Assembly: GCA_013697245.1 (NCBI GenBank)
Contig: JACCXH010000028.1
Location: forward strand, 1-64,000
DNA: 64,000 nucleotides
Reading direction: 5' to 3'
Origin: Bacteroidota bacterium
GTDB taxonomy: Bacteria; Bacteroidota; Bacteroidia; B-17B0; Aurantibacillaceae
This document shows positions 14,749 to 45,505 of the stretch, in pieces. How positions within the stretch are numbered: the stretch's first letter is position 1; each line of letters begins with the position of its first letter. Under the pieces are notes generated by a model that saw only the letters and a list, made by a program, of their open reading frames with translations, made no database searches and was not told the DNA's origin. The position numbers and the translations under genes are program-made.

Positions 14749-14761
14749 GAAACAAGAAAAG

Positions 14762-19562: not shown

Positions 19563-19564
19563 TA

Positions 19565-29778: not shown

Positions 29779-30662
29779 TGATTTTAATAAACCAAGAGTC
29801 TTTAAAAAAATTTACAGGATTAAACTCCGAAACAGCTTTCCAATGTAATGATTTCGGAATGTCTAATTCAACCCATCCAAATGTAATTGCTTTTATTGAT
29901 ACTGAAAAATTTATTGATGAGGTAAATCAAAATCAAAATATTACAGTTGTAATGTGTACACATGTACTTGCTGAAATGCTTAAAAATAAAGTTATAGTAA
30001 AATGTGATGATCCTAGATACTACTACTATACTTATTTAAATAAATTAGTTGAAATAAATTACAAAAAGACAATTTCGAAAATTAGTCCAACAGCAATAAT
30101 TCATCCTAGAGCATATATTTGTGAATATAATGTTGTAATTGGAGACAACACATACATAGGTCCAAACGCTACTGTACTTGCTGATGTACAAATTGGAAAT
30201 AATTGCTATATAAAATCAGGGGCGGTAATTGGTTCAGAAGGTTTTGAATTAAAACGCACTTCGAAAGGAATAATTAATGTATTGCATGATGGTAAAGTTT
30301 TAATAGGTAATGATGTTAAAATTGGAGCAAATTGTGCTATCCATAAGGGATTCTCATTTAGAAACACTATAATCGCTGATGATGTTAAAATTGATGATTT
30401 AGTATATATAGCGCACGCGGTGCATATTGGTAAAGGTTGTTTTTTAATTGGAAATTCTATGATTAGTGGTAGTACAACTCTTAAGGAAAATATATGGGTT
30501 GGCCCGGGAGTAACAGTTTCAAATGGATTAACGATAGAGGATAATGCCTACTTAACAATTGGAAGTGTTGTAACTAAAAATGTTGCGGTTGGAGAAAAAG
30601 TTAGCGGAAACTTCGCAATTTCTCACGAAAAATTCATTGAAAATCTAAAGAAAATTAAATAA
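29778..30662 (+). CDS. LpxD-like hexapeptide-repeat N-acyltransferase
   Basis: This 294-residue protein has an N-terminal LpxD-like uridine-binding segment (about 1-90). A left-handed beta-helix of hexapeptide repeats follows from about residue 105 (IGDNTYIGPNATVLADVQIGNN and similar). Candidate catalytic histidines are in YIAHAVHIGKG. It is probably a sugar N-acyltransferase rather than the lipid A enzyme: it lies in a polysaccharide locus and directly overlaps the WbmS-like gene. The acyl donor is unknown. Confidence 0.85.
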   Translation: MILINQESLKKFTGLNSETAFQCNDFGMSNSTHPNVIAFIDTEKFIDEVNQNQNITVVMCTHVLAEMLKNKVIVKCDDPRYYYYTYLNKLVEINYKKTISKISPTAIIHPRAYICEYNVVIGDNTYIGPNATVLADVQIGNNCYIKSGAVIGSEGFELKRTSKGIINVLHDGKVLIGNDVKIGANCAIHKGFSFRNTIIADDVKIDDLVYIAHAVHIGKGCFLIGNSMISGSTTLKENIWVGPGVTVSNGLTIEDNAYLTIGSVVTKNVAVGEKVSGNFAISHEKFIENLKKIK

Positions 30663-31843
30663 TGCAAGCAACAAAAAAAAGAAGTCTGGATACTAATTAT
30701 AAAATTTGTACACGGTGTATTTACGATACATCGCTGCCGTCAATTACTTTTAATGAAGCGGGAATTTGTAGCTATTGTATGATGACGGAGTCCTTAATAG
30801 AAGAATATGGGACTGGAAAGGAAAAGGGAAATATTGAATTAAAAAAAATAGTTGGTGAAATTAAAGCGGCTGGAAAAAATAAAAAATATGATTGCATTAT
30901 TGGAGTTAGCGGAGGAACAGACTCCTCTTATTTAATGCATTGGGCTGTAATGAATGGATTACGACCCTTAGCTGTTCATTACGACAATACATTTAATACT
31001 GCTATTGCCACACAAAATATTACTAAAATTACAAATAAACTAAAGATAGATTTATTTACTCATGTAGTTGATAATACAGAGATGGATGATATTTATAGAT
31101 CTTTTTTCTATGCAAATGTTCCTGAAATTGATGCAGCATCTGATTTAGCTGTTGCGGAGATTCTATATAGAGTGGCTTTTAAATTTAAGATTAAATATAT
31201 TCTTGAAGGGCACTCTTTTATAGAAGAGGGTATTTCGCCATTAGGCAAAAATTATTTTGATGGAAAATACATTTCATCTATTCATAAACTATTTGGTAAA
31301 AAGAAAATAAAAACCTATCCGCTAATGACCTTTTGGAGGTTTATGAAATGGGTTGTTTTAGTTCGCATAAAAAAAATTAGGCCATTTTGGTATATGGATT
31401 ATACAAAAGAGGATGCAAAAATACTTTTGTCGCGAGAATATGGATGGCAAGATTATGGTGGCCATCATTTGGAGAATAGAATGAATGCATTTAGTCATAG
31501 TGTATACTTCCCTCAAAAATTTGATATTGATTATAGGAATAATACACTTTCTGGTAAGGTTAGAAACGGAAAAATGAAACGTGAAGATGCCATTAAAGAG
31601 TATTATGAAACCTCTCCATTTATTGAAGAAGGTTTGGTTGATTACATTAAAAAGAGAATGAATTTTAGTGATCAAGAATATGAAAAAATTATGAGCGCTA
31701 AACCTAAGTATTGGTATGAGTACCCAACCTATAAAAAACGTTTTGAGAGATTACGTCCCTTATTTAAAATTTTATACAAAGCTAACTTGGTTCCAAAAAG
31801 TTTTTATATGAAGTATTGTTTCCCGGTTAGTTATATTAAATGA
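30662..31843 (+). CDS. N-acetyl sugar amidotransferase, WbpG/LegF-like (copy 1)
   Basis: This 393-residue protein is a PP-loop ATPase that activates an N-acetyl sugar and adds ammonia to form an acetamidino group. An N-terminal zinc-ribbon-like set, C16, C19, C36 and C39, precedes the PP-loop SGGTDS at 83-88. WYMDYTKEDAK and YGWQDYGGHHLENR are family blocks. HisH2 and HisF2, its ammonia-supplying partners, follow with an ATGA overlap and an abutment. This three-gene cassette is the established signature of acetamidino sugars, as in Pseudomonas O-antigen WbpG/HisH2/HisF2. Confidence 0.92.
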   Translation: MQATKKRSLDTNYKICTRCIYDTSLPSITFNEAGICSYCMMTESLIEEYGTGKEKGNIELKKIVGEIKAAGKNKKYDCIIGVSGGTDSSYLMHWAVMNGLRPLAVHYDNTFNTAIATQNITKITNKLKIDLFTHVVDNTEMDDIYRSFFYANVPEIDAASDLAVAEILYRVAFKFKIKYILEGHSFIEEGISPLGKNYFDGKYISSIHKLFGKKKIKTYPLMTFWRFMKWVVLVRIKKIRPFWYMDYTKEDAKILLSREYGWQDYGGHHLENRMNAFSHSVYFPQKFDIDYRNNTLSGKVRNGKMKREDAIKEYYETSPFIEEGLVDYIKKRMNFSDQEYEKIMSAKPKYWYEYPTYKKRFERLRPLFKILYKANLVPKSFYMKYCFPVSYIK

Positions 31844-32451
31844 TAACAATTATTAATTATGGTTTAGGAAATTTAGGCTCGGTGCAAAATATGCTTAAAA
31901 GAATTGGCGCACCTTGTATTATTACTTCTGATATAAAACAAATTGAAGCTGCAGAAAAAATTCTCCTTCCGGGTGTTGGTGCTTTTGATTCGGCGATTCA
32001 AAAAATAGATGAACTAAATTTGCGTTCTGTATTAGTGCATAAAGCTAAAATAGATAAGGTTCCTTTTTTGGGTATTTGCCTTGGGATGCAATTGTTAACC
32101 CGAGCAAGTGAGGAAGGTGTTCTAACCGGCCTTGACCTTGTACCAGCAAAAACCGTAAAATTTAAATTTGAAGAAGGTTCTGATCTAAAGATTCCGCACA
32201 TGGGTTGGAATTTCGTAAAACAAAATACACCAAGTAAATTAACTCAAGATTTTACTCCCGAACATCGATTTTACTTTGTTCATTCTTATAAAGTGGTTTG
32301 TGATGATAATAGCAATTCGATTTTGAAAACAAATTATGGAGGTGATTTTGATGCCGCTATTCAAAACGAAAATGTTTATGGTACACAATTTCATCCGGAG
32401 AAAAGCCATAAGTTTGGCATGCAGTTATTAACCAATTTTGCTAAATTATAA
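31840..32451 (+). CDS. hisH2: HisH-type glutaminase of the acetamidino cassette
   Basis: This 203-residue class I glutamine amidotransferase releases ammonia from glutamine. The nucleophile C80 is in FLGICLGMQLL, and the other triad residues H185 and E187 are in QFHPEKSH. The oxyanion strand is LPGVGAFD (43-50). It overlaps the WbpG-like gene as ATGA and abuts hisF2 without a gap. No other histidine genes are near, so ammonia is expected to feed sugar amidination rather than histidine synthesis. Confidence 0.93.
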   Translation: MITIINYGLGNLGSVQNMLKRIGAPCIITSDIKQIEAAEKILLPGVGAFDSAIQKIDELNLRSVLVHKAKIDKVPFLGICLGMQLLTRASEEGVLTGLDLVPAKTVKFKFEEGSDLKIPHMGWNFVKQNTPSKLTQDFTPEHRFYFVHSYKVVCDDNSNSILKTNYGGDFDAAIQNENVYGTQFHPEKSHKFGMQLLTNFAKL

Positions 32452-33201
32452 ATGTTATTAATCCGTTACATACCCTGCTTATTGCTGAAAGATAACGGTT
32501 TAGTTAAAACAGTTAATTTTAAAAACCCAAAATATGTTGGCGATCCTATAAACACCGTAAGAATTTTTAATGAAAAGGAAGTTGACGAACTTATTTTTTT
32601 AGACATAGATGCTACACCAAAAAATAAAGAACCCAATTATAAATTACTGAGTGAAATAGCCAATGAATGTTTTATGCCTTTAGCATATGGTGGTGGAATA
32701 AAAACATTTGAACAGGCTCAAAAAATATTTAATATCGGAATTGAAAAGGTAGCTATTAATAGTGCCTTGCATTCTAATTTAAATCTCATCACGCAAATTT
32801 CTGAAGTTTATGGGTCTCAAGCTGTAATCGGTGTAATAGATGTAAAGAAAAACTTTTTTGGCAAATATCAAATTGTTTCAAACTCAGCTCATGATAAACA
32901 CAAGTATGCAATCTCTGACTGGGTAAAAAAAATTGAAGATGCAGGCGTAGGTGAAATTTTAATTACAAGTGTAGATAACGAGGGTACATGGAGCGGTTTA
33001 GATTTAGAATTAATAAAACAAGTAACTTCAATTTCAAAAGTACCTGTAGTTGCTCATGGCGGTGCTGGAAATGTTGAGCACTTAAATAACGGAATAAAAC
33101 AAGGTGGCGCGAATGCCATCGCAATGGGAAGCATGGTGGTTTACCAGAAAAAAGATTTTGGTGTTTTAATTAATTTTCCAGACAAAAAACTGTTGCTTTA
33201 A
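32452..33201 (+). CDS. hisF2: AglZ/HisF2 family acetamidino modification protein
   Basis: This 249-residue TIM-barrel HisF homologue would channel ammonia from HisH2 to the WbpG-like enzyme. Barrel strands are recognisable as RYIPCLLLKDNG (5-16), FLDIDA, AYGGGI, VIGVIDVKK and VAHGGAGN. The first catalytic aspartate of true HisF (in IPCLD) is Leu11, while the second (IDVK) is kept. This loss is characteristic, as I recall, of HisF2 proteins, which do not need cyclase activity. It starts directly after hisH2. Confidence 0.92.
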   Translation: MLLIRYIPCLLLKDNGLVKTVNFKNPKYVGDPINTVRIFNEKEVDELIFLDIDATPKNKEPNYKLLSEIANECFMPLAYGGGIKTFEQAQKIFNIGIEKVAINSALHSNLNLITQISEVYGSQAVIGVIDVKKNFFGKYQIVSNSAHDKHKYAISDWVKKIEDAGVGEILITSVDNEGTWSGLDLELIKQVTSISKVPVVAHGGAGNVEHLNNGIKQGGANAIAMGSMVVYQKKDFGVLINFPDKKLLL

Positions 33202-33205
33202 GAAG

Positions 33206-34492
33206 ATGGATAAAAGCAAAATAAAAATTGCTTGTGTTGGTAACATGAATAATAGTATGTTTTCAATTGTCCGTCATTTACGTTATGCAGGATACAACGC
33301 AGAACTGATTTTATCAAAAGAATTTAGTCATTTTCAGCCCGATGCAGATACGTTTGAGGAAATTAATACAGATTTTATTATCGAGTCAGATTTTTTAAAT
33401 TCAGACATACTATATACTAAGCAGCTTAAACTAAATAATTTTTTTTCGAAGTATAACTTTATAATTGCTTGTGGTTACTCTATTGCTTATTTAACTTTTG
33501 CTAAAATAAAAATTGACGTAGTTATACCCTATGGATCTGACTTATATGAATTACCTTTCTTTGAAATTCAAGATGTAAATAATACTTACTTTAATAAGCA
33601 ACGAGCAGCTTTGGCAAAATATCAAAAATTGGGTATTGAAAACGCAACCGGTATTATTTTTGACTATACAAACGAGGAGTTTGAAAAAACAATTAACCTT
33701 TTTAATTTAAAAGGCAAAAGGTATAAATATCCAAGTCCATTTATTTATACTCCTGAATTTAATTGGCAAAACAGTAAAACTATTCAAACGAAAAGTTCTT
33801 TAACTTCAAAAATGCTTGAAATTAAAAAGAAGTTTGATTTTATAGCCTTTAGCCATATTCGTCAATCTTGGAAAAACCCTATTGACATATGGAGCTACAA
33901 AGGCAATGAACGTATTTTTAGAGGTTTTAAAAATTTTTTAGAACTAACCAATGCCAATGCATGTATAATTGTTTTTGAATATGGATCAGATGTTGAGGAC
34001 TCAAAAAAATTGATTGTAGAATTGGGTTTAGAGAAGAATGTTATATGGTTTCCAACGTTAGAAAGAAAAAACATATTAAGCATGATTAGTTTTATAGATG
34101 TTGGTATTGGGGAGGTTGGTGATTATAGTTGGTTATCGTATGGAGCTATTTTTGAATTTCTATGTATGCAAAAACCGGTAATTCATAACCGTAAAGATAG
34201 TTTGTACGAAAAGATAGTGGATAGCTTGTATCCAATGTACTCAGCTGCTAATGAAGAAGAAGTGACAAAAGCCCTGATCTCGTGTTTTCAAAATAAAGAG
34301 CATGCAAATAAAATAGCTGTTGAAGCTAATGAATGGTATGTTGATTATGCAATTAATAAACCACTCGCTGTTTTAACCTCAATACTCGAAAAAAAAGGAA
34401 CTGTTTTACCTTCCTTCGAGAAAAAAATGAGCGTTTTTTTATTAAAAGTTGAATCTCTCGCTTTTTTCTTAAAATTAAAACTCAACTTATAA
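33206..34492 (+). CDS. Probable GT-B glycosyltransferase
   Basis: This 428-residue cytoplasmic protein has a two-domain GT-B look. The N-terminal half begins KIACVGNMNNSMFSIVRHLRYAG, like a nucleotide-binding fold. The C-terminal half has an acidic donor-site stretch, IGEVGDYSWLSYGAIFEFLCMQKPVIHN (about 300-327), similar in position to the E-x7-E region of GT4 enzymes. I cannot assign a CAZy family with certainty. It starts four bases after hisF2, and its stop overlaps the next GT4 start as TAATG. Confidence 0.7.
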   Translation: MDKSKIKIACVGNMNNSMFSIVRHLRYAGYNAELILSKEFSHFQPDADTFEEINTDFIIESDFLNSDILYTKQLKLNNFFSKYNFIIACGYSIAYLTFAKIKIDVVIPYGSDLYELPFFEIQDVNNTYFNKQRAALAKYQKLGIENATGIIFDYTNEEFEKTINLFNLKGKRYKYPSPFIYTPEFNWQNSKTIQTKSSLTSKMLEIKKKFDFIAFSHIRQSWKNPIDIWSYKGNERIFRGFKNFLELTNANACIIVFEYGSDVEDSKKLIVELGLEKNVIWFPTLERKNILSMISFIDVGIGEVGDYSWLSYGAIFEFLCMQKPVIHNRKDSLYEKIVDSLYPMYSAANEEEVTKALISCFQNKEHANKIAVEANEWYVDYAINKPLAVLTSILEKKGTVLPSFEKKMSVFLLKVESLAFFLKLKLNL

Positions 34493-35727
34493 TGAACATT
34501 GCTATAGCTACACCCGAGTTTGTTTCAGAGGCTGTTTTTGATGGTGGGTTGGCAAATTATACTTACAAATTAGCTAAATGGTTAATATCAAAAAATCATT
34601 CTATTGTTATTTATATTCCAACAAAAGATTTTAATGAAGCAGATAGTTTTAAATATGAAAATATAAATGTTGTTAAGGTAAAAACAAAAGATTACGCTTG
34701 GCTAATAAAGTATCAACTTACTCGATTTAAATTGGGGTTTTTAATTTCCGATAAACTGCGTTACCAAATTCAATTTAAACAATATGCTAAAGCAATCAAT
34801 AAAAAAATTAAACTTGATCACGCTAAAAACCCTTTTGATATAATTCACTATCCTCACTTAGGCGGGTATGCCTACTATCGACCAAACTACATTCCTACAA
34901 TTGTTCGGCTTTCGAGTTCAACAGAATTGTGTCAAGAAATGGGCGGATACGGAAGTAGTAATTTACAAGTAGAGGTTCAAGCTGAAATTGAGTATGAAGC
35001 TATGAAAAAAGCTGATGCTGTTTTTGGGCCTAGTATAAAAATTGCGGCATTAGCAGAATCTAAAATCAAAAAAAAAATAAGTATTATTGAAACGCCTTAT
35101 ATAAAACCGGAAGGAAGCTTAGATATTACTGTTTATAATGAACTATTAAAAGGAAAAAAATATATTTTATTTTTTGGTTCAATAGGTCTTATTAAAGGCG
35201 TAGGCACTATAAGTCAAATAATATACCGGTTGCTAAATCAACATCCGGATTTATATTATGTTTTTGTGGGCAAGCAATTAAATAACAAAATAAATGAGGT
35301 AGATGTTTGGGATGGCTTAATAAATCATGCAGGCGCTTTAAAAAATCGAATCATTTATATTCCTTCTCAAAAACATAGTACGTTATTTCCAATCATTCAG
35401 CATGCAGAATTAATTACTTTGCCATCAAGAACAGACAATTTTCCAAATACATGTATAGAAAGTATGGCAAATAAAAAAATTGTCATAGGTACAAAAGGCA
35501 ATGGTTTCGATCAACTCATTAATGACGGTGAAAATGGTTTTGTAATAGATGTAGATGATCATTTGGCTTTACTCGAAAAAATAAACATAGTGCTTAATAT
35601 GTCCTTAGAAGAGAAGATTTTAATGGAGGATTTGTCTCTTAAACGTTCAGAAAGTTTACAGCCGGATATTGTACTCAACTCTTTACTTCAACTTTACTCA
35701 GATACAATAAAAAAATTTAAAAATTAA
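34492..35727 (+). CDS. GT4-family glycosyltransferase (tandem copy A)
   Basis: This 411-residue GT-B enzyme has an N-terminal acceptor domain opening with ATPEFVSEAVFDGGLANYTYKLA. The C-terminal donor domain has FFGSIGLIKGVGTI, PSRTDNFPNTCIESMA and TKGNGFDQLINDGENGFV. It is very similar along its whole length to the product of 37557-38786, and each copy is followed by an AsnB gene, so a two-gene unit has been duplicated. The stop overlaps the asnB start (TAATG). Sugar specificity is unknown. Confidence 0.9.
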   Translation: MNIAIATPEFVSEAVFDGGLANYTYKLAKWLISKNHSIVIYIPTKDFNEADSFKYENINVVKVKTKDYAWLIKYQLTRFKLGFLISDKLRYQIQFKQYAKAINKKIKLDHAKNPFDIIHYPHLGGYAYYRPNYIPTIVRLSSSTELCQEMGGYGSSNLQVEVQAEIEYEAMKKADAVFGPSIKIAALAESKIKKKISIIETPYIKPEGSLDITVYNELLKGKKYILFFGSIGLIKGVGTISQIIYRLLNQHPDLYYVFVGKQLNNKINEVDVWDGLINHAGALKNRIIYIPSQKHSTLFPIIQHAELITLPSRTDNFPNTCIESMANKKIVIGTKGNGFDQLINDGENGFVIDVDDHLALLEKINIVLNMSLEEKILMEDLSLKRSESLQPDIVLNSLLQLYSDTIKKFKN

Positions 35728-37556
35728 TGTGTGGCATCGCAGGATATATTAACCTAACGGGAAAAGCAACTGAGCAAGTTATATCAGACATGACCGATGC
35801 TATTAGTCATAGAGGGCCTGATGGCTTTGGGCATAAGTTCTTTGATAACGTGGCTATTGGTCATCGCCGCTTATCCATCATAGATATTGCCTCTGGTGCT
35901 CAGCCCATGTCTAATAAAAGCGAAACTATTTGGATAACCTATAATGGCGAGTTATACAACTACCTTGATTTAAAAAATAAGTTAATAAATTTTGGTTATA
36001 CATTTAAAACAACATCAGATACAGAAGTCATTATTTATGCTTACGAAAAATGGGGAGAACATTGCTTAAAATATTTTAGAGGAATGTTTGCTTTTGCAAT
36101 AACAGATCTTAATACAAAAAAGCTTTTTGTAGCAAGAGATCATTTTGGAATCAAACCTTTATTTTATTACCAATCTGCAAATTGTATCGCTTTTGGTAGC
36201 GAATTACAACAATTCAAATCACTACCGGAATTTGATACTGCCCTGGATTTAAATGCCATAGATCAATACTTATGGCTACAATATATACCGGCACCACTAA
36301 CCGTTTTTAAATCGATTAAAAAATTAAAAGCGGCGCATTATATTACTATCGATTTTAATGGACAGATAAGTGAGCAAAAAGAATATTGGGATATAGACTT
36401 TGGTAAAAAACAAGTAAAAACGCAAAAAGAATGGATGGATGCAACAGAGGCTGTTATTAAAGATTCTGTAAAAGCACATTTGGTGTCCGATGTTCCATTT
36501 GGCGCATTTTTGTCAGGGGGTATCGATTCTAGTTTGGTGGTTACCTATATGAGTGAGGTGTTAAATAAAAAAGTAGAAACATTTAGCATTGGTTTTGAAG
36601 AGGAAGAATATAACGAATTAAAATATTCGGAACTCGTTGCAAAAAAATTCAACACCAATCATCATGTAGAAATTGTTAAGCCCGATGCGTTAAATGTATT
36701 GCCTAAGCTAATTAAGCATTATGGCGAGCCTTTTGGAGATAGTTCGTGCATTCCTACTTATTATGTTTGTGAATTAGCAAAAAAACATGTTACCATGGTT
36801 TTAAGTGGTGATGGCGGTGATGAATGTTTTGCAGGCTATAATTCATACACACAGTTTATGAAATATTTGCCTATCAATTATCGCAGCGGTATTAAAAAGA
36901 AATTATATCCTTTACAAGAAAAATTGTTCCCAAAACGATATCCTAAAAAAGACACGCTTGAAAACTGGATCAGTAAAATGAGCTATTTAGAGGCTGATTG
37001 GAGAACAAAATTGTGGAAACAAGAACACCATGCACATATTTCAAAAATGCCAGAGGGCTTTGAAGAAATTTATTCTAAAACAAAAAATTTTTCAACTGTT
37101 AATAAGGTTCAGTATGTTGATATGAAAACGTACATGAATTTTGATATCCTTACAAAGGTTGATACGGCCAGTATGATTCATAGTTTAGAAGTGCGCACAC
37201 CACTTATTGATAAAGAAGTTTGGGAATTTGCCGCAACCATACCGGAAGAATTTAATATTAATAATAAATCGGGCGAATGGCAGGGTAAAATTTTGTTAAA
37301 AGAAATTATGTTAAAGCATTTTCCACATGATTTTGTATACCGCAAGAAGCAAGGCTTCGGCGTGCCAATCTCTAAATGGTTTGCTAAACAAGGGCAACTA
37401 AATACCTTATTACAAGACCGAATGCTTTCCAAAAATTCTTTAGTTAAATCTTATTTCAACCAAACAACAATCAGTAGCCTTATCTCCGGAAATCATAATG
37501 AATCATTATGGTTAATTCTATTTCTGGAAGAGTGGTTAACGCAGTTTAAAAAATAA
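35727..37556 (+). CDS. Asparagine synthetase B-like amidotransferase (tandem copy A)
   Basis: This 609-residue protein has the glutaminase nucleophile C2 in MCGIAGYI, SHRGPDGFG and NGELYN in the first domain, and the ATP-pyrophosphatase loop SGGIDS at 263-268. MVLSGDGGDE follows. It is exactly the same length as its tandem partner at 38839 and nearly collinear in sequence. The likely role is amidation of a sugar carboxylate, working with the adjacent GT4 enzyme. It directly abuts the next GT4 gene. Confidence 0.92.
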   Translation: MCGIAGYINLTGKATEQVISDMTDAISHRGPDGFGHKFFDNVAIGHRRLSIIDIASGAQPMSNKSETIWITYNGELYNYLDLKNKLINFGYTFKTTSDTEVIIYAYEKWGEHCLKYFRGMFAFAITDLNTKKLFVARDHFGIKPLFYYQSANCIAFGSELQQFKSLPEFDTALDLNAIDQYLWLQYIPAPLTVFKSIKKLKAAHYITIDFNGQISEQKEYWDIDFGKKQVKTQKEWMDATEAVIKDSVKAHLVSDVPFGAFLSGGIDSSLVVTYMSEVLNKKVETFSIGFEEEEYNELKYSELVAKKFNTNHHVEIVKPDALNVLPKLIKHYGEPFGDSSCIPTYYVCELAKKHVTMVLSGDGGDECFAGYNSYTQFMKYLPINYRSGIKKKLYPLQEKLFPKRYPKKDTLENWISKMSYLEADWRTKLWKQEHHAHISKMPEGFEEIYSKTKNFSTVNKVQYVDMKTYMNFDILTKVDTASMIHSLEVRTPLIDKEVWEFAATIPEEFNINNKSGEWQGKILLKEIMLKHFPHDFVYRKKQGFGVPISKWFAKQGQLNTLLQDRMLSKNSLVKSYFNQTTISSLISGNHNESLWLILFLEEWLTQFKK

Positions 37557-38786
37557 ATGCACATTGCTTTAGTTACTCCCGAATTTGTTACCGAAGCAAG
37601 CTTTGACGGTGGTTTAGCAAATTATATTTATAAACTTGCTAAGTGGTTAAAAAGTCAACAACATAAAGTAACCATCTTTCTTGTGTCTGAAACCTCCGGT
37701 AGTTTTGTTTTTGAAGATATCACCATTGAGCGTATAAAAATTATTGATTATGCATGGCGAATCAACTATCAAGCCAAGCGCTTTAAAATTAGTTTTTTAT
37801 TTCCTGAAAAATTGCAATGCTTTGTTGCTTTCAGACAAGCTTCTTATTTTGTAAAGAAGACCATAAAACAGTTTAATAAAAAACACCCTATAGATATAAT
37901 TCAATATCCCCACTTATCAGGCTATTCGTTTTATAAAGTTAAAAATGTGCCGAGTATAGTTAGGTTGTCAAGTTCAACCTATTTGTGCAACGCAATGGGT
38001 GGTTGGGGTAGGAGTGATACTTATATGAAGTCACTAGAAAAATTTGAGGTTATGGCTATGCGGAAATCAGAAATGGTATTTGGTCCCAGTAAAATGATAG
38101 CCGAACTTGTCGAACCTCAAATTGGCAAGCATATATCTATTATCGAAACACCTTATATGGCACCCGAAAGTAAGCTTGATAATAGCATGTATGAAAGTGT
38201 TTTAAAGGAAAAAAGATATGTGCTTTTTTTTGGTTCAATTGGTTTGATTAAGGGTGTAGGAACCATTGCTGAAATAATATATGATTTATTAAAGACCAAC
38301 AAAGATTTATATTATATTTTTGTTGGAAAACAGCTTCACAATAAAATAAACGAAACAGATCTTTGGGATTATTTAATGGGTAAAGCTGCCGAATTTAGCG
38401 ATAGAGTGATTCATATACCTGCGCAAAAACATCCAGCCTTGTTTCCGATTATTCAAAATGCACAACTTGTTACATTGCCTTCACGAACGGACAATTTTCC
38501 AAATACATGTATTGAAAGTATGGCTAATAAAAAAATAGTAATTGGAACAAAAGGTAATGGCTTCGATCAACTCATTAACGATAATGAAAATGGTTTTGTT
38601 GTGGAGGTAGATAATTCTACAGAACTTCTCGATAAAATAAATTGCGTTTTACAACTTGACATTGAAACCAAAAATAAAATAGAACAAAAAGCTTTTGAAC
38701 GGTCTCGAAAACTTCATCCGGATATTGTTTTAAATCAAGTTATAGAACTTTATAAAAAAACAATTAACGAGTTGAAGACAGCTTAA
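37557..38786 (+). CDS. GT4-family glycosyltransferase (tandem copy B)
   Basis: This 409-residue paralogue of the GT4 enzyme at 34492 shares the opening VTPEFVTEASFDGGLANYIYKLAKWL and the donor-site blocks FFGSIGLIKGVGTI and SRTDNFPNTCIESMANKK. Differences concentrate in the N-terminal acceptor domain (about 40-180), as expected if the two copies add the same donor to different acceptors. It abuts the stop of AsnB copy A and is followed by a 52-base gap before AsnB copy B. Confidence 0.9.
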   Translation: MHIALVTPEFVTEASFDGGLANYIYKLAKWLKSQQHKVTIFLVSETSGSFVFEDITIERIKIIDYAWRINYQAKRFKISFLFPEKLQCFVAFRQASYFVKKTIKQFNKKHPIDIIQYPHLSGYSFYKVKNVPSIVRLSSSTYLCNAMGGWGRSDTYMKSLEKFEVMAMRKSEMVFGPSKMIAELVEPQIGKHISIIETPYMAPESKLDNSMYESVLKEKRYVLFFGSIGLIKGVGTIAEIIYDLLKTNKDLYYIFVGKQLHNKINETDLWDYLMGKAAEFSDRVIHIPAQKHPALFPIIQNAQLVTLPSRTDNFPNTCIESMANKKIVIGTKGNGFDQLINDNENGFVVEVDNSTELLDKINCVLQLDIETKNKIEQKAFERSRKLHPDIVLNQVIELYKKTINELKTA

Positions 38787-38838
38787 TTAATTTTATAAAT
38801 AGAATGTTGAACCAAAAACAATACAAAATCATTAAATA

Positions 38839-40668
38839 ATGTGCGGTATAGCTGGTTATATTAGTCTAAATTCTGCAGCTACTAAAGTAATTATTGAACA
38901 GATGACAGATGCCATCAGTCACAGGGGGCCTGACGGTTTTGGACATAAAATTTTTGATAATGTCGCAATTGGTCATAGACGTTTATCAATTATTGATATT
39001 AGTACAGGGGCTCAGCCTATGTCTAATGAATCTGAAACATTATGGATTACCTACAATGGAGAATTATATAATTACCTTGAACTAAAAAATGAATTAGTAA
39101 GTTATGGTTATAAATTTCGCACCAATTCTGATACCGAGGTAATTATTTACGCTTATCAGAAGTGGCAAGAAGAGTGCCTTCAAAAATTCAGAGGTATGTT
39201 TGCCTTTGCCATTTTAGATTTAACCAACAAAAATATTTTTATTGCCAAGGATCATTTTGGAATTAAGCCTTTGTTCATTTATCAATCGGCTAATATTATA
39301 GCCTTTGGAAGCGAACTCCAACAATTTAAAAACCTGCCGGCATTTGATAATACGATTGATTTAAATGCCATTGATCAGTATTTATGGTTGCAATATATAC
39401 CGGCACCGCTAACAGTGTTTAAGCAAATAAAAAAATTAAAAGCCGGCCATTTTGTTTCGATTGATTTTAGCGGAAAAATAAGCGAGCAAAAAAAATATTG
39501 GGATATTGATTTTAGCAAGAAGCAAATTAAAACTAAAAATGAATGGCTTGAGGCTACTGATGCAGTTATAAAAGATGCTGTAAGATCTCATCTTGTTTCT
39601 GACGTTCCGTTTGGCGCTTTTCTGTCGGGTGGAATTGATTCAAGTCTGGTTGTTCAGCATATGAGTCAAATGCTAAATAAAAACGTAGAAACATTTAGTA
39701 TTGGATTTGAAGAAGAAGCATATAATGAATTAAAATTTTCGGAACAGGTTGCAAAAGAATTTAAAACAAATCACCATACCGAAATAGTAAAACCAAACGC
39801 GATAGAAATACTTCCAAAACTGGTAAAACATTATGGCGAACCTTTTGGCGATAGTTCATGCATACCCACGTATTATGTTTGTGAACTAGCGCGTAAACAT
39901 GTTACCATGGTTTTAAGTGGAGATGGCGGAGATGAGGCCTTTGCAGGCTATAATTCATATATAAATTGGTTAAAGTACATGCCTCAATTTTACCGTAAAG
40001 GTTTTAAAAAAGCCATTTATCCACTACAAGAAAAATTATTCCCTCTAAGATACCCAAAAAAAGATACGCTTGAAACATGGATAAGTATTAATCAATATTT
40101 GGATACTAATTGGCGAACAAATTTATGGCAGAATCAATATCAAGGTCAAATAGCTGTTTTGCCTGAAGAATTTGAACAATTGTTTAATCGAACAAAAGAG
40201 TATTCTCTTACCAACAAAGTACAGTATATGGATATGAAAACATATTTAAACTTTGATATTTTAACTAAAGTAGATACTGCAAGTATGATGCATAGTCTTG
40301 AAGTTAGAACGCCACTGGTAGATAAAAATGTTTGGGAGTTTGCCGCAACCATACCTGAAGAATTTAACATAAACAAAAACTCAGGCGAATGGCGTGGAAA
40401 GTTACTGTTAAAAGAATTAATGCTTAAAAATTTCTCTAACGAATTTGTGCATCGCAAAAAACAAGGTTTTTCAATACCGCTTGATAAATGGTTTAGTCAT
40501 AAAGGCGATTTAAATCAATTACTTCATGATAAATTATTGTCTCCTAATTCGGTATTAAACACTTATTTTAATGTGAATACAATAACAAAGATGGTTGATG
40601 AAAACCAAACAAGTGGATTATGGTTGCTCGTGTTTTTAGAAGAATGGTTATCTCAGTATAAAAAGTAA
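38839..40668 (+). CDS. Asparagine synthetase B-like amidotransferase (tandem copy B)
   Basis: This 609-residue near-duplicate of the protein at 35727 has C2 in MCGIAGYI, SGGIDS at 263-268 and MVLSGDGGDE. All active-site elements are intact, so this is not a decaying copy. Divergence is greatest in about residues 385-460. The 52-base AT-rich gap before it contrasts with the overlap seen in copy A. It probably amidates a second uronic acid or a second position. Confidence 0.92.
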   Translation: MCGIAGYISLNSAATKVIIEQMTDAISHRGPDGFGHKIFDNVAIGHRRLSIIDISTGAQPMSNESETLWITYNGELYNYLELKNELVSYGYKFRTNSDTEVIIYAYQKWQEECLQKFRGMFAFAILDLTNKNIFIAKDHFGIKPLFIYQSANIIAFGSELQQFKNLPAFDNTIDLNAIDQYLWLQYIPAPLTVFKQIKKLKAGHFVSIDFSGKISEQKKYWDIDFSKKQIKTKNEWLEATDAVIKDAVRSHLVSDVPFGAFLSGGIDSSLVVQHMSQMLNKNVETFSIGFEEEAYNELKFSEQVAKEFKTNHHTEIVKPNAIEILPKLVKHYGEPFGDSSCIPTYYVCELARKHVTMVLSGDGGDEAFAGYNSYINWLKYMPQFYRKGFKKAIYPLQEKLFPLRYPKKDTLETWISINQYLDTNWRTNLWQNQYQGQIAVLPEEFEQLFNRTKEYSLTNKVQYMDMKTYLNFDILTKVDTASMMHSLEVRTPLVDKNVWEFAATIPEEFNINKNSGEWRGKLLLKELMLKNFSNEFVHRKKQGFSIPLDKWFSHKGDLNQLLHDKLLSPNSVLNTYFNVNTITKMVDENQTSGLWLLVFLEEWLSQYKK

Positions 40669-40750: not shown

Positions 40751-41761
40751 ATGGCTGAGTTTTCAATTTCAGTTATAATGGCGGCATACAATGCAGAAGA
40801 ATTTATTTCTGTAGCTATTGATTCGATTTTAAATCAGTCATTTCGTAATTTTGAATTCATAATTATTAATGATGCTTCGACTGATAGAACTCTTTCAATA
40901 ATTAATACCTATAATGACGAACGTATTAAAATTATTACAAATCAAAAAAATTGCGGGTTAGCGGTTTCGCTTAATATCGGTATTCGTGCTGCTACAGGTA
41001 AATACATTGCCAGAATGGATGCTGATGATATTTCGGATTTAAGCAGGTTTGAAAAGCAGTATCAATTTCTCGAAGAAAACCCCGAAATAGACGTCTGTGC
41101 AACGGCTATGCAATTATTTGGCACTGAGAATAACATCAGTGGAAATGATGTATCTACGGATGATGAAATAAAGGCAGAATTAATATGGGGGTGTCCTACA
41201 AACCATGCAACCATGCTTATGCGCTTGGATAAAATTAAAAAGTATAATTTATTTTATGACGAAACATTTGGCGTAGGACAAGATTGGAAATTTTGGTACG
41301 ATGTAAAAAATTATGTAAAAATTTTTAATTTTATTGAGCCATTATATTTATATAGAAGAGGGGAGCAAAATGTTACTGTGCAATTCAAAGATAAATCTAG
41401 AGAAAGATCATTAAGAATGCATAAAATTTTACTTGCAGATTTAGCAATACCCTTTACCGATGAGGATTTAAAAATACACCAGTTTATTAATGGTTTATTT
41501 AGTTTAACACCAAGTCCCGATAATGTTAAGAAAGCAAAATTTTGGCTAAAAAAAATATTACTTCAAAACAAAATAATTAAAAAGTATGAGGAAAAAACAT
41601 TTGAAGCAACAGCTTTAAAAAAATGGAATCATCTGTTTTTTCTTATTGTACCATATGGACACAATACCGTTTTTAAGTACTTTTTAGTTACGGGCATTCG
41701 TTGGAATCATCTTAGTTATTATTTAAAATATTCTGTCAATAAATTAATTGGAAGAAAATAA
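40751..41761 (+). CDS. GT2-family glycosyltransferase
   Basis: This 336-residue GT-A enzyme has SVIMAAYNAEEFISVAIDSILNQSF at residues 7-31, INDASTD (39-45) and the metal-binding D90-A-D92-D93 in ARMDADDIS. WGCPTNHATMLMR and the acidic VGQDWKFWYD lie in the acceptor half. There is no membrane segment. It is separated from AsnB copy B by 82 bases, one of the larger gaps in the block. It transfers a sugar to the growing chain in the cytoplasm; specificity is unknown. Confidence 0.92.
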   Translation: MAEFSISVIMAAYNAEEFISVAIDSILNQSFRNFEFIIINDASTDRTLSIINTYNDERIKIITNQKNCGLAVSLNIGIRAATGKYIARMDADDISDLSRFEKQYQFLEENPEIDVCATAMQLFGTENNISGNDVSTDDEIKAELIWGCPTNHATMLMRLDKIKKYNLFYDETFGVGQDWKFWYDVKNYVKIFNFIEPLYLYRRGEQNVTVQFKDKSRERSLRMHKILLADLAIPFTDEDLKIHQFINGLFSLTPSPDNVKKAKFWLKKILLQNKIIKKYEEKTFEATALKKWNHLFFLIVPYGHNTVFKYFLVTGIRWNHLSYYLKYSVNKLIGRK

Positions 41762-41803: not shown

Positions 41804-42814
41804 TTGTCTCAGAAATCACATATATTTGATCATAGCGTTCTTATCGATCCAAAAGGTGCAACCACAATTTGGTACGGTCAAAAGAACCTCAATATTTTTG
41901 GTAAACTTCATTATCTTAAGATCGTTTTAAAAGCAAAAAAGCAAATAAATCAATTTTATAATAAGGCCATAAAAGAAAAAGAATGTTATTATGGCCCTTT
42001 TAAAGGCGAATTCGGACATTTTTTACTGCATAACCTTCCTTTCCTTTCTAATTTACATAAACAAGGTGTAAAGATCCATTATTGTGGAATGGAATTGCAT
42101 AGAGGGTTTTTAGTAGATACCAATGGCAATTCAATTATACACAGGTATTATCCTTTAAGAGATTTTTTTGCGGAAGTATCATCGAGTTCGAATGATACAA
42201 TTCCACCAATCGATGTTCAAAAAGAGATTGAAGCATTTTATGCGGTTGCAAAAAAAAGCGGCAAAGCATTTCTTGATATCGCTGATCATAATATGTACTG
42301 GTTTGTTTTTAGGAACTGGCAATTAGTAAATAACAGGCAACATGTTTACAACATTAATCAGGTTTATAAAACTGCTAATGAAAATTCATGTGTTATATTT
42401 CCAAGGAAAAAAGGCAATACCGTAACGCCCAATAATGGCGGGCCATGGGACTATATAGAGATAGCCAAGCTGGTGGCGCCCTATTTTGATAAAGTTTATA
42501 TTACCGGTCACCCAAGTATGAGCGCCGAAATAGAATCCGAAGGCAAAATCGAGGTATGCCTTTCAACAGATAATAAAGTGGTAATAGAAAAATGTTGTAA
42601 TGCCAAACTTATAATTACCCAGCACTCAGGTGCTATACATATTGGGTGTTATACCAATACAGATGTGTTGCTTATATTTAATGGAGAGCCGCCTATTAAA
42701 GGCTTAATAGATACTTTGAGGTTTAGAAAGAATTTAACACAACAACCTTTGCAATACGCATTTAATAAAGAACAAATAGTTGGTCACATAAAAACACTAT
42801 CTTTAAATAAATAA
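41804..42814 (+). CDS. Unknown protein, possible glycosyltransferase
   Basis: I cannot assign this 336-residue protein firmly. A stop codon directly precedes the TTG at 41804 and the next in-frame ATG is about 90 residues on, so the TTG start is well supported. GPFKGEFGHFLLHNLPFLSNL (about 64-84) recalls the entry helix of GT61-like enzymes. The C-terminal half, VIFPRKKGNTVTPNNGGPWDY to ITQHSGAIHIGCYTNTDVLLIF, looks like a GT-B nucleotide-sugar domain. It sits between a GT2 gene and the heptose-type cassette. A glycosyltransferase role is inferred from fold-like pattern and context. Confidence 0.55.
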   Translation: MSQKSHIFDHSVLIDPKGATTIWYGQKNLNIFGKLHYLKIVLKAKKQINQFYNKAIKEKECYYGPFKGEFGHFLLHNLPFLSNLHKQGVKIHYCGMELHRGFLVDTNGNSIIHRYYPLRDFFAEVSSSSNDTIPPIDVQKEIEAFYAVAKKSGKAFLDIADHNMYWFVFRNWQLVNNRQHVYNINQVYKTANENSCVIFPRKKGNTVTPNNGGPWDYIEIAKLVAPYFDKVYITGHPSMSAEIESEGKIEVCLSTDNKVVIEKCCNAKLIITQHSGAIHIGCYTNTDVLLIFNGEPPIKGLIDTLRFRKNLTQQPLQYAFNKEQIVGHIKTLSLNK

Positions 42815-42815
42815 A

Positions 42816-43685
42816 ATGATAAATTATTTAAATTCAATTTTTGAAGAAATAAAAAACCTGAAGGTTTTAATAGTTGGAGAAACTATTGTGGATGAGTTTA
42901 TAGATGTTTCTTACGAAGGACAATCTATGAAATCGTTTTGTCCGGTATTTAAGCTTGAAAGCGGCAAAACAGTTCAGCAAGGCGGTGCGCAGGCAATAGC
43001 CAATCATCTTTATGATTTTGTAAAAGAGGTAAAGGTAATTACAAATACAAATAGCGAGATCGTAAAAACAAGGTATGTAGATGTTGGTGATAAAAAGAAA
43101 CATGTCGAGATCAATAAATTTGATATTAAAGATTTTAAAGCCGTGAAGGTTAATACAGCTGATTACGATATTGTAATAGTAGCAGACTTTGGACATGGCT
43201 TTTGCGATAAACTAGAAATAACTGATGGCTTTCATCTAATGTGCCAAACAAACTCAAATAACTTTGGTTTTAACCGAATTTCAAAATGGAAGAATAAGAA
43301 AAAAAGAAGTGCGTGCATCGATTTGCGTGAGGCCAGCTTGCAAGTGAACGAGCGAATTGAAAATCCAACATCGCCAGATATTTTAAAGATTTTTAATTAT
43401 GAATTGAATTGCGATAATTTATTTATAACTACAGGCAAATCAGGTTCAACATTTACAAATGGCAAATTGGTTGAAGCACATCCGTCTTTTAAAACACAGG
43501 TAATTGATACAATTGGCGCAGGAGATACTTTTTTTGCTTTTGCTTGTGTTATGTCACATTTAAATAAAGAAAAACAAAATTTATATTTACCATCCTTAGC
43601 CGCTAGTTTATCTACTACATGGCTTTGTAACGAAAGATCAGTAACAAAAAAATTATTATTAGAACATGCTGCTAAATACCTATAA
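42816..43685 (+). CDS. PfkB-type sugar kinase, HldE N-domain-like
   Basis: This 289-residue ribokinase-family enzyme resembles the kinase half of HldE/RfaE. The N-terminal VLIVGETIVDEFIDV and the catalytic loop DTIGAGDTFFAFA with base D237 are clear. It is followed by GmhA-like, epimerase-like and nucleotidyltransferase genes, so the two halves of HldE are encoded separately around two other genes. The expected product is a sugar 1-phosphate, probably heptose-like. Its 3' end overlaps the next gene by 20 bases. Confidence 0.87.
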   Translation: MINYLNSIFEEIKNLKVLIVGETIVDEFIDVSYEGQSMKSFCPVFKLESGKTVQQGGAQAIANHLYDFVKEVKVITNTNSEIVKTRYVDVGDKKKHVEINKFDIKDFKAVKVNTADYDIVIVADFGHGFCDKLEITDGFHLMCQTNSNNFGFNRISKWKNKKKRSACIDLREASLQVNERIENPTSPDILKIFNYELNCDNLFITTGKSGSTFTNGKLVEAHPSFKTQVIDTIGAGDTFFAFACVMSHLNKEKQNLYLPSLAASLSTTWLCNERSVTKKLLLEHAAKYL

Positions 43686-44193
43686 AGAAAAATTCACAGA
43701 ATTTTTAAATTCAAAGGTCATTGATGATCAGATACAGGAATCTGTAAAAATGATAAAACAACACAAGCGTATATTTTTTATCGGTAACGGAGGCTCTAAT
43801 TCCATATGCTCGCATTTAATGGAAGACTTTGCCAAAGTTTTAAAATACGAATCTTTTGCTTTTACCGATCCTGCATTGATAACCTGTTTTTCAAATGATT
43901 ATGGTTATGAAAAGGCTATGGTAGAATGGCTTAAGGTGTATTATAAAAAAGACGACCTTTTAGTTGCTATCAGTAGCTCTGGCAACTCTGCTAACATTAA
44001 TAATGCTGTTGATTTTGCAAATACTGTTAATAAAAATGTGATTACACTTTCAGGATTTAAAAATGACAATAAATTAGTTAGTAAAGGTAAGATAAATTTT
44101 TACCTTAATTCGGAGTCCTACGGAATAGTTGAGTGTTATCATCAAACCATACTTCACACGATCTTAGATATAATTAATGAAGAACATAAATAG
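43666..44193 (+). CDS. SIS-domain phosphosugar isomerase, GmhA-like
   Basis: This 175-residue protein has a single SIS domain. The phosphosugar loop FIGNGGSNSICSHLMEDF is at about 38-55 and the second loop ISSSGNSANI near 103-112. These match GmhA, which converts sedoheptulose 7-phosphate to D-glycero-D-manno-heptose 7-phosphate. It overlaps both neighbours, by 20 and 17 bases, showing tight coupling within the cassette. Confidence 0.87.
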   Translation: MLLNTYKEKFTEFLNSKVIDDQIQESVKMIKQHKRIFFIGNGGSNSICSHLMEDFAKVLKYESFAFTDPALITCFSNDYGYEKAMVEWLKVYYKKDDLLVAISSSGNSANINNAVDFANTVNKNVITLSGFKNDNKLVSKGKINFYLNSESYGIVECYHQTILHTILDIINEEHK

Positions 44194-45094
44194 CGTACTT
44201 ATAACTGGTGTTGCAGGTTTTATTGGCTCTAACCTGTTAGATTATCTCCTTTCTAAAACTACCTGGCATATTACCGGTATTGATAATTATAGTACTGGAA
44301 ATAAAAAAAACATTGATAATCATTTTAACGAACCTCGCTTTTCATTTATAAATGATTCGGTTGAAAATATAAAAAGTCTTAAACCTTACGATTGTGTTTT
44401 TCATCTCGCGGCTTTACCACGAATACAGCCTAGTTTTGAATTTGTAACCGAACACATTTCTGCCAACTTAACTTTTTCTATGCATCTGATAGAGTTGATG
44501 GTGAAAGAAAATAATTTTCCGAAATTTGTATTTAGTAGTTCGAGCGCTGTATACGGAACGCCGGAAAAAATCCCAACGCCAGAATCAGAAAAGATAGATT
44601 GTTTAAGCCCATATGCATTTCAGAAATATGAAGTCGAAAAATACCTCGAATTACTAAGCACACGTTATCCATTGGACTATGTTTGTCTGCGTTATTTTAA
44701 TCCGTATGGTCCGCGAAGTTTTAATCCCGATAATAAATTTAATGCCTACAGCAGCGTTGTCGGTATTTTTTTGTATAAGCACAAAAATGGTCAGCAACTT
44801 TTAATTACAGGCGATGGTTCGCAAAAACGTGATTTTATACACGTATATGATCTTGCAAAAGCTAATTATCTGGCAGCTATAAATTCAAGCGTATTAAATA
44901 CGGCGTTTAATATTGGCAATGGCGATACCTTAAGTGTTTTAGAATTAGCGAAACAAATTTCATCGAATTATGAATTTATACCAAAACGCGAAGGCGAATC
45001 AGATATTACATTTGCAGATGTAACCAAAGCAAAGCAGTTACTGAATTGGTTTCCTGAACATGATATCAAAGATTTTATTAAAAGCAATATTTAA
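44177..45094 (+). CDS. NAD-dependent nucleotide-sugar epimerase
   Basis: This 305-residue extended SDR has the cofactor loop GVAGFIGSN at 10-18, the SSSSAVYGTP active-site strand, Y-x3-K in SPYAFQK, and the substrate loop RYFNPYGPRSF. The layout fits a UDP-glucose 4-epimerase or HldD-like enzyme. Its place between the isomerase and nucleotidyltransferase suggests it acts on the activated sugar made by this cassette, for instance epimerising a nucleotide heptose. It abuts the following gene. Confidence 0.87.
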   Translation: MKNINSVLITGVAGFIGSNLLDYLLSKTTWHITGIDNYSTGNKKNIDNHFNEPRFSFINDSVENIKSLKPYDCVFHLAALPRIQPSFEFVTEHISANLTFSMHLIELMVKENNFPKFVFSSSSAVYGTPEKIPTPESEKIDCLSPYAFQKYEVEKYLELLSTRYPLDYVCLRYFNPYGPRSFNPDNKFNAYSSVVGIFLYKHKNGQQLLITGDGSQKRDFIHVYDLAKANYLAAINSSVLNTAFNIGNGDTLSVLELAKQISSNYEFIPKREGESDITFADVTKAKQLLNWFPEHDIKDFIKSNI

Positions 45095-45505
45095 ATGAAA
45101 ATTGGTTTTACATGTGGTGTTTTTGATCTTTTTCATGCCGGGCACGTTTTGATGTTACAAGAATGTAAAGAACATTGCGACTATTTGATAGTTGCAATTA
45201 ATCGTGCTGAAAATATTTCAAAAACAATTAATCCCGGCAAAAAAGCCCCTATATTTTCTGTAACTGAGCGCAAATTAATTATGGCAAGCTGCAAATATGT
45301 TGATGAAGTATTAGAATATAATTCAGAAGAAGAACTTCTTGAGGTCCTAAAAACAAAAAATATTTCTATCCGTTTTTTGGGAGAAGATTATAAAGGTAAA
45401 CCTATTACTGGTGAAGATCTTAAAATGGTAATATATTATACCAACCGTGACCATGGATTAAGTACAAGTTTATATAGGGCAAAACTTACCGACGGCAATA
45501 AATAA
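45095..45505 (+). CDS. Nucleotidyltransferase, HldE C-domain-like
   Basis: This 136-residue cytidylyltransferase-fold enzyme has the nucleotide-binding H14-A-G-H17 in FDLFHAGHVLML and the C-terminal LSTSLYRAKL, equivalent to the ISTSxxxR motif. It would load the sugar 1-phosphate with a nucleotide, as the C-terminal half of HldE does with ATP. The family also includes glycerol-3-phosphate cytidylyltransferase (TagD). The adjacent kinase and GmhA-like isomerase make the heptose interpretation more likely. Confidence 0.87.
   Translation: MKIGFTCGVFDLFHAGHVLMLQECKEHCDYLIVAINRAENISKTINPGKKAPIFSVTERKLIMASCKYVDEVLEYNSEEELLEVLKTKNISIRFLGEDYKGKPITGEDLKMVIYYTNRDHGLSTSLYRAKLTDGNK

Follow-up and report, generated by a model that had tools for sequence, protein, structure and literature searches.

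Two adjacent, diverged glycosyltransferase and WbpS-like amidotransferase modules among the surface-polysaccharide genes of an uncultured member of the Bacteroidota

Results

Gene order at the locus

The window, that is the whole stretch of DNA analysed, covers 64,000 nucleotides (nt) of contig JACCXH010000028.1 (GenBank assembly GCA_013697245.1) from an uncultured Bacteroidota bacterium of the family Aurantibacillaceae, whose genome comprises 4.44 Mb in 74 contigs. The locus is part of a surface-polysaccharide gene cluster and contains two pairs of genes, each formed by a family 4 glycosyltransferase (GT4; below also GT) and an amidotransferase of the asparagine synthetase B (AsnB) kind. The pairs lie head to tail on the plus strand at 34492-40668, in the order GT_A-AsnB_A-GT_B-AsnB_B. 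This order, the lengths of 411, 609, 409 and 609 amino acids (aa) and the open frames had been described in a reading of the sequence alone (the original prediction) and all hold, no internal stop being found. The features are listed below; L and G numbers are our labels for loci and genomes.

34492-35727, plus strand: GT_A, GT4-family glycosyltransferase, 411 aa (PF00534, E 7.8e-20; AlphaFold; Foldseek)
34492-35106, plus strand: N-terminal (acceptor-side) domain of GT_A, residues 1-205 (A/B type signal)
35727-37556, plus strand: AsnB_A, WbpS-like glutamine-dependent amidotransferase, 609 aa (TIGR03108, 591.6 bits)
37362-37553, plus strand: C-terminal segment of AsnB_A, residues 546-609 (strongest A/B type signal)
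37557-38786, plus strand: GT_B, GT4-family glycosyltransferase, 409 aa (PF00534, E 4.5e-20; groups with the GT of L019)
38839-40668, plus strand: AsnB_B, WbpS-like amidotransferase, 609 aa (TIGR03108, 570.1 bits; groups with L019 and L069)
40474-40665, plus strand: C-terminal segment of AsnB_B, residues 546-609 (A/B type signal)

Enzyme families and folds

The top NCBIfam match of both AsnB proteins was TIGR03108 (eps_aminotran_1), with 591.6 bits vs 488.6 for TIGR01536 in AsnB_A and 570.1 vs 466.3 in AsnB_B. TIGR03108 also scored above TIGR01536 in 11 of 11 WbpS-type AsnBs scanned (the 13 of the tree except L049 and L069), and the 2 AsnBs of the other type that were scanned both showed the opposite order. 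One AsnB of the other type belongs to this cluster too, where its gene is flanked by a methyltransferase gene (by the Pfam tally of its relatives) and a formyltransferase gene (Pfam):

26384-28285, plus strand: AsnB_3, different AsnB type (TIGR01536 432 bits, TIGR03108 420 bits; separate clade)

In AsnB_A and AsnB_B the residues Cys2, N73-G74, D98, SGGIDSS and K541 are all intact; we take these to include the Cys2 glutaminase, the PP-loop (SGGIDSS) and the catalytic lysine (K541). The AlphaFold model of AsnB_A had a mean predicted local distance difference test score (pLDDT) of 81.9, and its nearest folds were TsnB9 (7ylz) and Escherichia coli AsnB (1ct9). The E. coli enzyme (1CT9) shares the two-domain fold (Foldseek E 1e-28), the glutaminase and the PP-loop, but its identity to AsnB_A is about 23%. 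Moreover, TTI of its TTIR stretch stands opposite a gap in AsnB_A and the next Arg is replaced by Ser; AsnB_B has the same stretch as AsnB_A. Thr-Thr-(Ile)-Arg is presumably the aspartyl-site motif of asparagine synthetase, involved in aspartate activation. Based on this difference and on the family scores, AsnB_A and AsnB_B appear unlike true asparagine synthetases. Their resemblance is to WbpS, but they are not strict members of the TIGR03108 model, whose curated cut-off is 816.9 bits.

GT_A and GT_B matched Glycos_transf_1 (PF00534) with 71.6 and 72.3 bits, above the gathering score of 26.4. The AlphaFold model of GT_A (mean pLDDT 86.7) displayed a GT-B fold. Its nearest solved structures were the retaining GT4 enzymes MshA and BshA, with template modelling (TM) scores of 0.76 (3c4q) and 0.72 (5d00), while the top-ranked chain, 3c48, gave a TM score of 0.44. 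The likeness to MshA and BshA lies in the fold; the identity is 16-18%, and GT_A carries D-x7-E instead of E-x7-E. The D-x7-E stretch is present in both GT_A and GT_B, and its two positions were invariant in 9 of 9 alignment rows. The usual GT4 motif being presumably E-x7-E, this stretch would be a variant. Of the active sites, which looked intact in the original prediction, those of both AsnBs keep their key residues, and the two GTs have the D-x7-E stretch in common. In GT-B enzymes, the acceptor is bound by the N-domain and the donor by the C-domain.

Relationship between the two pairs

AsnB_A and AsnB_B were aligned without gaps, 444 of 609 aa being identical (72.9%; DNA 72.1%), with a longest identical protein run of 22 residues; the collinearity and equal length reported before were therefore reproduced. 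For GT_A and GT_B, 235 of 408 aligned aa were identical (57.6%; DNA 64.9%), and the expected gradient was observed, with 64% identity in the donor half and 51% in the acceptor half. The longest exact DNA runs between the copies were 26 nt (AsnB) and 23 nt (GT). A repeat search returned two families of two 300-nt copies each (76% and 74%), in register with the pairs and with a chance level that was not estimated. The DNA-level comparison that had been proposed as a check showed homology, and no sign of a recent duplication at identities of 72.1% and 64.9% and exact runs of at most 26 nt. Judged from these alignments, the likeness of the two pairs is one of old homology and not of fresh duplication.

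The original interpretation of the run was a tandem duplication. That such an event took place in this lineage was contradicted by comparison with relatives. Single GT4-AsnB pairs were found in four of them (L017 in G015, L018 in G049, L019 in G034 and L020 in G005), and the closest pair-bearing relatives in the genome_contigs collection were Bacteroidota metagenome-assembled genomes (MAGs). Each copy was nearer to an outside homologue than to the copy next to it, an outcome that the original prediction itself had named as refuting: GT_A to L017 (63.5%) and GT_B to L019 (64.8%), vs 57.6% between the two; AsnB_A to L017 (79.1%) and AsnB_B to L019 (80.5%), vs 72.9%. In the AsnB tree, AsnB_A grouped with L017 and L018 (92/99) and AsnB_B with L019 and L069 (83/84). 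In the GT tree, GT_B grouped with L019 (98/95); the placement of GT_A was ambiguous, and its grouping with L017 and L018 was not rejected (p 0.19). The approximately unbiased (AU) test rejected A and B as sisters for both the GT (p 0.0023) and the AsnB (p 0.000115).

Silent sites pointed in the same direction. In codons for the same residue, third positions were 40-65% identical, with no peak between A and B (six comparisons, six regions). The silent sites between A and B were near saturation, and the NG86 and LWL85 estimates of synonymous divergence (dS) between the copies were above 1 and hence unreliable. Gene conversion between A and B was not indicated by any significant tract of silent sites (segment p 0.63 for the GT and 0.18 for the AsnB). 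When all variable sites were considered, one A-B segment was found in the GT (codons 309-345, p 0.023, uncorrected for 15 pairs), in a conserved donor motif; the segments shared by B with L020 (p 0.004) and with L019 (p 0.005) had lower p values. The head-to-tail order, the near-equal lengths and the direct-repeat families would be expected from a recent tandem duplication of one pair. Nevertheless, with the AU results, the near-saturated silent sites without any significant A-B silent tract, and the clustering of the B genes with L019 and of AsnB_A with L017 and L018, such a duplication was rejected and is hardly credible. A different origin of the two pairs in terms of base composition was likewise rejected, the content of guanine and cytosine being alike in both pairs and in the cluster, overall (GC) and at third codon positions (GC3).

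The cluster genes vary in their nearest relative, which is L017 or L020 for the gene of a 428-aa protein upstream of the pairs and L017 for that of a 336-aa protein downstream, while the family 2 glycosyltransferase (GT2) gene after the second pair matches G034 and G040. This suggests that the cluster may have been put together by modular reassembly. Both an ancient duplication with losses elsewhere and a recombination of two related clusters fit the data.

Association of GT4 and AsnB genes

The family set comprised 87 genomes, and a search at the level of the order returned the same 87. The GT4 was detected in 6 of them (protein search E 1e-40; profile E 1e-60), two GT4-AsnB pairs being present, among these six, in the window genome only. 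With an AsnB profile (E 1e-180), 30 places were located in 24 genomes, and the tree divided them into 10 WbpS-type and 20 other-type loci. A GT4 gene directly adjoined the AsnB gene at 8 of the 10 WbpS-type vs 0 of the 20 other-type loci (Fisher p 7.7e-6, a value weakened by the relatedness of the loci to each other). At two of these, in G080 and G074, it is a GT4 of a different kind, located downstream. The profile had been built from AsnBs found beside the GT and covers six of the ten WbpS-type loci, as well as AsnB_3 among the 20 others; with its own loci set aside, the adjacency is 2 of 4 vs 0 of 19 (p 0.024), and both GT4s are of the different kind. Next to the 20 other-type loci lie 39 genes, none of which was assigned to a GT family or matched by the GT profile at E 1. 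They encode aminotransferases (13), epimerases (6), methyltransferases (5), hexapeptide proteins (4), FemAB proteins (4), sulfotransferases (3) and formyltransferases (2), which accounts for 37 of the 39; two had no Pfam match.

The adjacency that was to be looked for in other genomes was indeed encountered, both in relatives and in Peribacteria, Desulfobacterales and Planctomycetaceae. Among 22 genome_contigs loci with a relative of the GT, all found by GT search, seven adjoin a WbpS-like AsnB (L017, L018, L019, L020, L021 of Peribacteria, L023 of Desulfobacterales and L027 of Planctomycetaceae), two a divergently oriented AsnB with 33-34% identity to AsnB_A, and 13 none, some of the last being on short contigs. 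In L023 and L027 the order is swapped to AsnB-GT. The pairing was also found broken. The two WbpS-type loci not adjoined by a GT4 are those of G040 and G031, where the AsnB occurs but this GT4 does not (GT search at E 1e-60); in G040 it stands by the homologue of the 428-aa gene and by an epimerase gene, and in G031 by a methyltransferase and an epimerase gene. G072 (84% complete) has two adjacent GT4s (L022:1-2286 and L038), 41% identical over 328 columns, with neither an intervening nor a flanking AsnB on these GT4 contigs. L038 ends with the beginning of a GT gene, a sign that the L022 and L038 contigs of this genome (G072/MAG-334) may adjoin. Samples of the phylum amounting to 395 genomes (GT E 1e-60; AsnB E 1e-200) returned the window's own genome only, the AsnB cut-off being too strict for WbpS-type AsnBs to be called absent.

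It follows that the link between GT4 and AsnB is real but loose, and that the pairing is not obligate. The unit that had been proposed stands as far as co-travel at most loci is concerned, with a bias from the search, and fails as an obligate one in view of G040, G031 and G072. The two genes could adjoin merely because polysaccharide clusters are dense in GT genes, with no special link. The three exceptions would then be expected, as would the 13 of 22 GT loci that lack an adjoining AsnB, and six of the ten WbpS-type loci entered the profile through their GT neighbourhood, the rest giving 2 of 4 with a different GT4. Yet the other AsnB type, in the same genomes, has no recognised GT among its 39 neighbours, and the adjacency is retained with swapped order in two other phyla (loci found by GT search). 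We regard chance adjacency as the less probable explanation, albeit one with appreciable weight.

Differences between types A and B

For this comparison type A comprised the A genes of the window, L017 and L018, and type B the B genes of the window and L019, together with L069 for the AsnB. In the GT N-domain the identity was 0.598 within types and 0.523 between types; in the C-domain the values were 0.661 and 0.663 (permutation p 0.001; five GTs, with type labels assigned in knowledge of the trees and identities). In the six AsnBs, the identities within and between types were 0.779 and 0.761 for residues 1-200, 0.824 and 0.783 for residues 201-400, 0.763 and 0.687 for residues 401-545, and 0.711 and 0.542 for residues 546-609. 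Since the type signal of the GT lies in the N-domain, on the acceptor side, and is missing from the donor domain, the pattern fits a common donor and two acceptors, with the C-terminus of the AsnB also separating the types. The proposal that one donor is added at two positions gains support from this confinement. The AsnB of G040 is of type B and stands without this GT4; in columns 561-600 it is 80% identical to L019 and 65% to AsnB_B. This favours a reading of the substrate by the AsnB C-terminus over a binding to the GT.

The two pairs might also be redundant, alleles of one function left by cluster recombination and serving one position. The differing nearest relatives of the 428-aa, GT2 and 336-aa genes would agree with this, and a single pair is present in each of the four relatives in which a complete pair lies on a long contig. 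However, the catalytic residues are kept in both pairs, the branch lengths of both are similar to those of single-copy relatives, and the greatest differences fall in the acceptor domain of the GT and the C-terminus of the AsnB. Redundancy is accordingly considered rather unlikely.

Donor sugar and predicted product

Published work is cited here from the available passages of the papers. WbpS and WbqG belong to TIGR03108, PGN_1234 is closest to both, and its deletion leaves a uronic acid in place of the uronamide; where in its pathway WbpS acts is given as not known (PMC7468200). With TIGR03108 as the top NCBIfam match, the amidated uronic acid of the original prediction is still the best guess for the product. 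The likeness to WbpS, WbqG and PGN_1234, drawn from the TIGR03108 model and PMC7468200 and not from their own sequences, comprises the full-length top match, the Cys glutaminase and PP-loop, the setting in a polysaccharide cluster and a genome with WbpA/WbpO-like and WbpB-like genes. The differences are the scores (592 and 570 bits vs the cut-off of 816.9) and the presence of two diverged copies, each beside a GT4.

Two UDP-sugar 6-dehydrogenases (UDPG_MGDP_dh_N over cut-off) were found in the genome, on contigs C41 and C30. By eye, we take one to be followed by a UDP-glucuronate decarboxylase-like gene and the other to stand beside a WbpB-like gene. Both lie outside the window, which contains no such dehydrogenase, so the donor is not tied to this cluster; a uronic-acid donor from the genome's own pathway is plausible. 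Two further features of the window are relevant here:

53540-54634, plus strand: WecB/WbpI-type UDP-N-acetylhexosamine 2-epimerase (TIGR00236 288 bits, cut-off 210)
18714-20857, plus strand: polysaccharide ATP-binding cassette (ABC) exporter, Wzm/Wzt-like permease and ATPase (NF050109 and NF010065 best, both below cut-off)

The nearby Wzm/Wzt-like exporter suggests that the chain is completed in the cytoplasm, where it would be accessible to both GT4 and AsnB.

Alternatively, the AsnBs could produce another amide or amidine, such as an amino-acid amide of a uronic acid, and not a simple uronamide. Relatives of the AsnB fold include TsnB9, beta-lactam synthetase and CarA, and the scores fall under the TIGR03108 cut-off. 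On the other hand, WbpS and WbqG, members of TIGR03108, and their relative PGN_1234 are linked to uronamide (PMC7468200), and the intact N-terminal Cys glutaminase makes ammonia the expected nucleophile. A different product is therefore judged improbable.

Other genes of the cluster

The genes flanking the two pairs include the following:

33206-34492, plus strand: 428-aa protein directly upstream of the pairs (no Pfam or NCBIfam match)
30662-33201, plus strand: WbuX/WbpG-HisH-HisF acetamidino-sugar module (TIGR03573 219 bits for the WbuX gene, cut-off 203)
40751-41761, plus strand: GT2-type glycosyltransferase after the second pair (homologues in G034 and G040)

In L017, L019 and L020, a homologue of the 428-aa protein is encoded immediately ahead of the GT4-AsnB pair. 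In L018, HisH-HisF is placed between the homologue and the pair, and in G040 the homologue directly precedes the AsnB. It is possibly a glycosyltransferase of an undescribed family. HisH and HisF of the WbuX module were named by eye from the sequence. Two WbuX-type amidotransferases (30662-31843 and 46338-47468) score above the TIGR03573 cut-off, and HisH-HisF was noticed, by eye, beside the first of them only. In Sphingomonas, a table of transposon hits for an exopolysaccharide places an exosortase-type amidotransferase, WbuX, HisF, HisH and GT4 genes in one cluster (PMC11340318).

The GT2 homologues of G034 and G040 are 65-66% identical and lie downstream of the AsnB, one gene further on. 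The next gene encodes the 336-aa protein (41804-42814; no Pfam or NCBIfam match), with homologues in L017, L018, L019 and L069 (64-85%) and a copy in L070 cut by the end of the stretch. It is nearest to L017 (85%), although the preceding GT2 gene matches B-type loci. At 42816-45505, a run of genes for a heptose-like kinase, a sugar isomerase, an epimerase and a nucleotidyltransferase was found, all under equivalog cut-offs; it is perhaps a variant pathway for heptose or a related nucleotide sugar. The 771-aa protein at 47472-49787 is a possible fusion, its N-terminal half being GT4-like (weak PF13439) and its C-terminal half polysaccharide deacetylase-like by eye, with no match for the latter in the family searches.

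An exosortase gene, XrtX (13745-14796, minus strand; 176 bits, cut-off 170), lies beside the polysaccharide cluster and is accompanied by a weak match to the XrtX-associated membrane protein. The product of 52539-53543 weakly matches the XrtA/PEP-CTERM FemAB family TIGR03019 (30 bits, below cut-off), which is also matched by VimA of Porphyromonas gingivalis (PMC7468200).

Discussion

None of the titles, abstracts and passages covered by our literature search described a double GT-AsnB run. Adjacency of a GT and wbpS and the presence of several wbpS genes per cluster are already published, so the module is of a known sort. In psc1 of Rubrivivax gelatinosus, compared by its gene listing (PMC3684757), a run of group-1 GT, wbpS and group-1 GT occurs and the cluster has three wbpS genes, but the other two stand apart and no GT-wbpS-GT-wbpS run is formed. 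In Tannerella forsythia, two transferases serve uronic-acid-type residues of one glycan (PMC6120980). The tag of gtfM (Tanf_01260), whose residue is a uronamide in the model of that paper, directly precedes that of asnB (Tanf_01265), and gtfI adds N-acetylmannosaminuronic acid. That system differs in having one AsnB, and the results section names the GtfM residue as the acid form (PMC6120980). In Helicobacter pullorum, the wbpS mutant carries a truncated disaccharide on its N-glycan, read as the replacement of the N-acetylhexosaminuronamide (HexNAcAN) by the corresponding acid (HexNAcA), whereupon elongation stops (PMC6025236). This system concerns an N-glycan and apparently involves a single wbpS.

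We infer with moderate confidence that the locus encodes two diverged modules of GT4 and WbpS-like amidotransferase, which use the same kind of donor and different acceptors and install a uronamide at two positions of the glycan. The GT4 would act in the cytoplasm and extend the surface glycan by a uronic-acid-type sugar, probably HexNAcA or a 2,3-diamino-uronic acid, supplied by enzymes encoded elsewhere in the genome. The AsnB-like enzyme would release ammonia from glutamine, adenylate the sugar carboxyl with ATP and so form the uronamide. Each type is also carried singly by other genomes; here A and B would have become adjacent through old duplication and losses or through cluster recombination. 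As both modules probably employ the same kind of donor with different acceptors, two positions would be served.

Several observations weigh against this reading. The AsnB homologue of T. forsythia was putatively assigned the acetamidino group of pseudaminic acid and not a uronamide (PMC6120980), and the H. pullorum report is inconsistent on the second sugar of the wbpS mutant, HexNAcAN vs HexNAcA (PMC6025236). The AsnBs score under the curated cut-off, and the dehydrogenases are outside the window. The adjacency statistics shrink to GT4s of a different kind once the profile's own loci are removed, and come from related loci, and G040 and G031 do without this GT4. The type labels were assigned with the trees in view. 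Finally, the C-domain of GT_A is nearest that of L019 (71%), and in the C-domain tree GT_A, GT_B and the L019 GT form a loose group (84/90), so that an old recombination within the cassette is a rival account of the missing donor-domain signal.

A more specific version, which we put forward tentatively and consider rather doubtful, is that the AsnB acts after transfer, on the lipid-linked chain. The N-domain of the GT and the C-terminus of the AsnB would then be matched readers of the acceptor, and each module would write one uronamide at one position. PMC7468200 gives no settled answer as to whether the uronamide is formed while the nucleotide sugar is still free or once the sugar is part of the growing chain. 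This question of timing would become testable in a cluster where two diverged amidotransferases are each accompanied by a transferase of their own. If amidation occurred only on the nucleotide sugar, one amidotransferase should suffice. To our knowledge, a single amidotransferase gene, wbtH, serves the O-antigen of Francisella tularensis. This O-antigen has two adjacent N-acetylgalactosaminuronamide (GalNAcAN) residues (PMC3866875). The locus would thus represent ordinary glycan biology with one testable twist, namely that amidation may read the acceptor after transfer.

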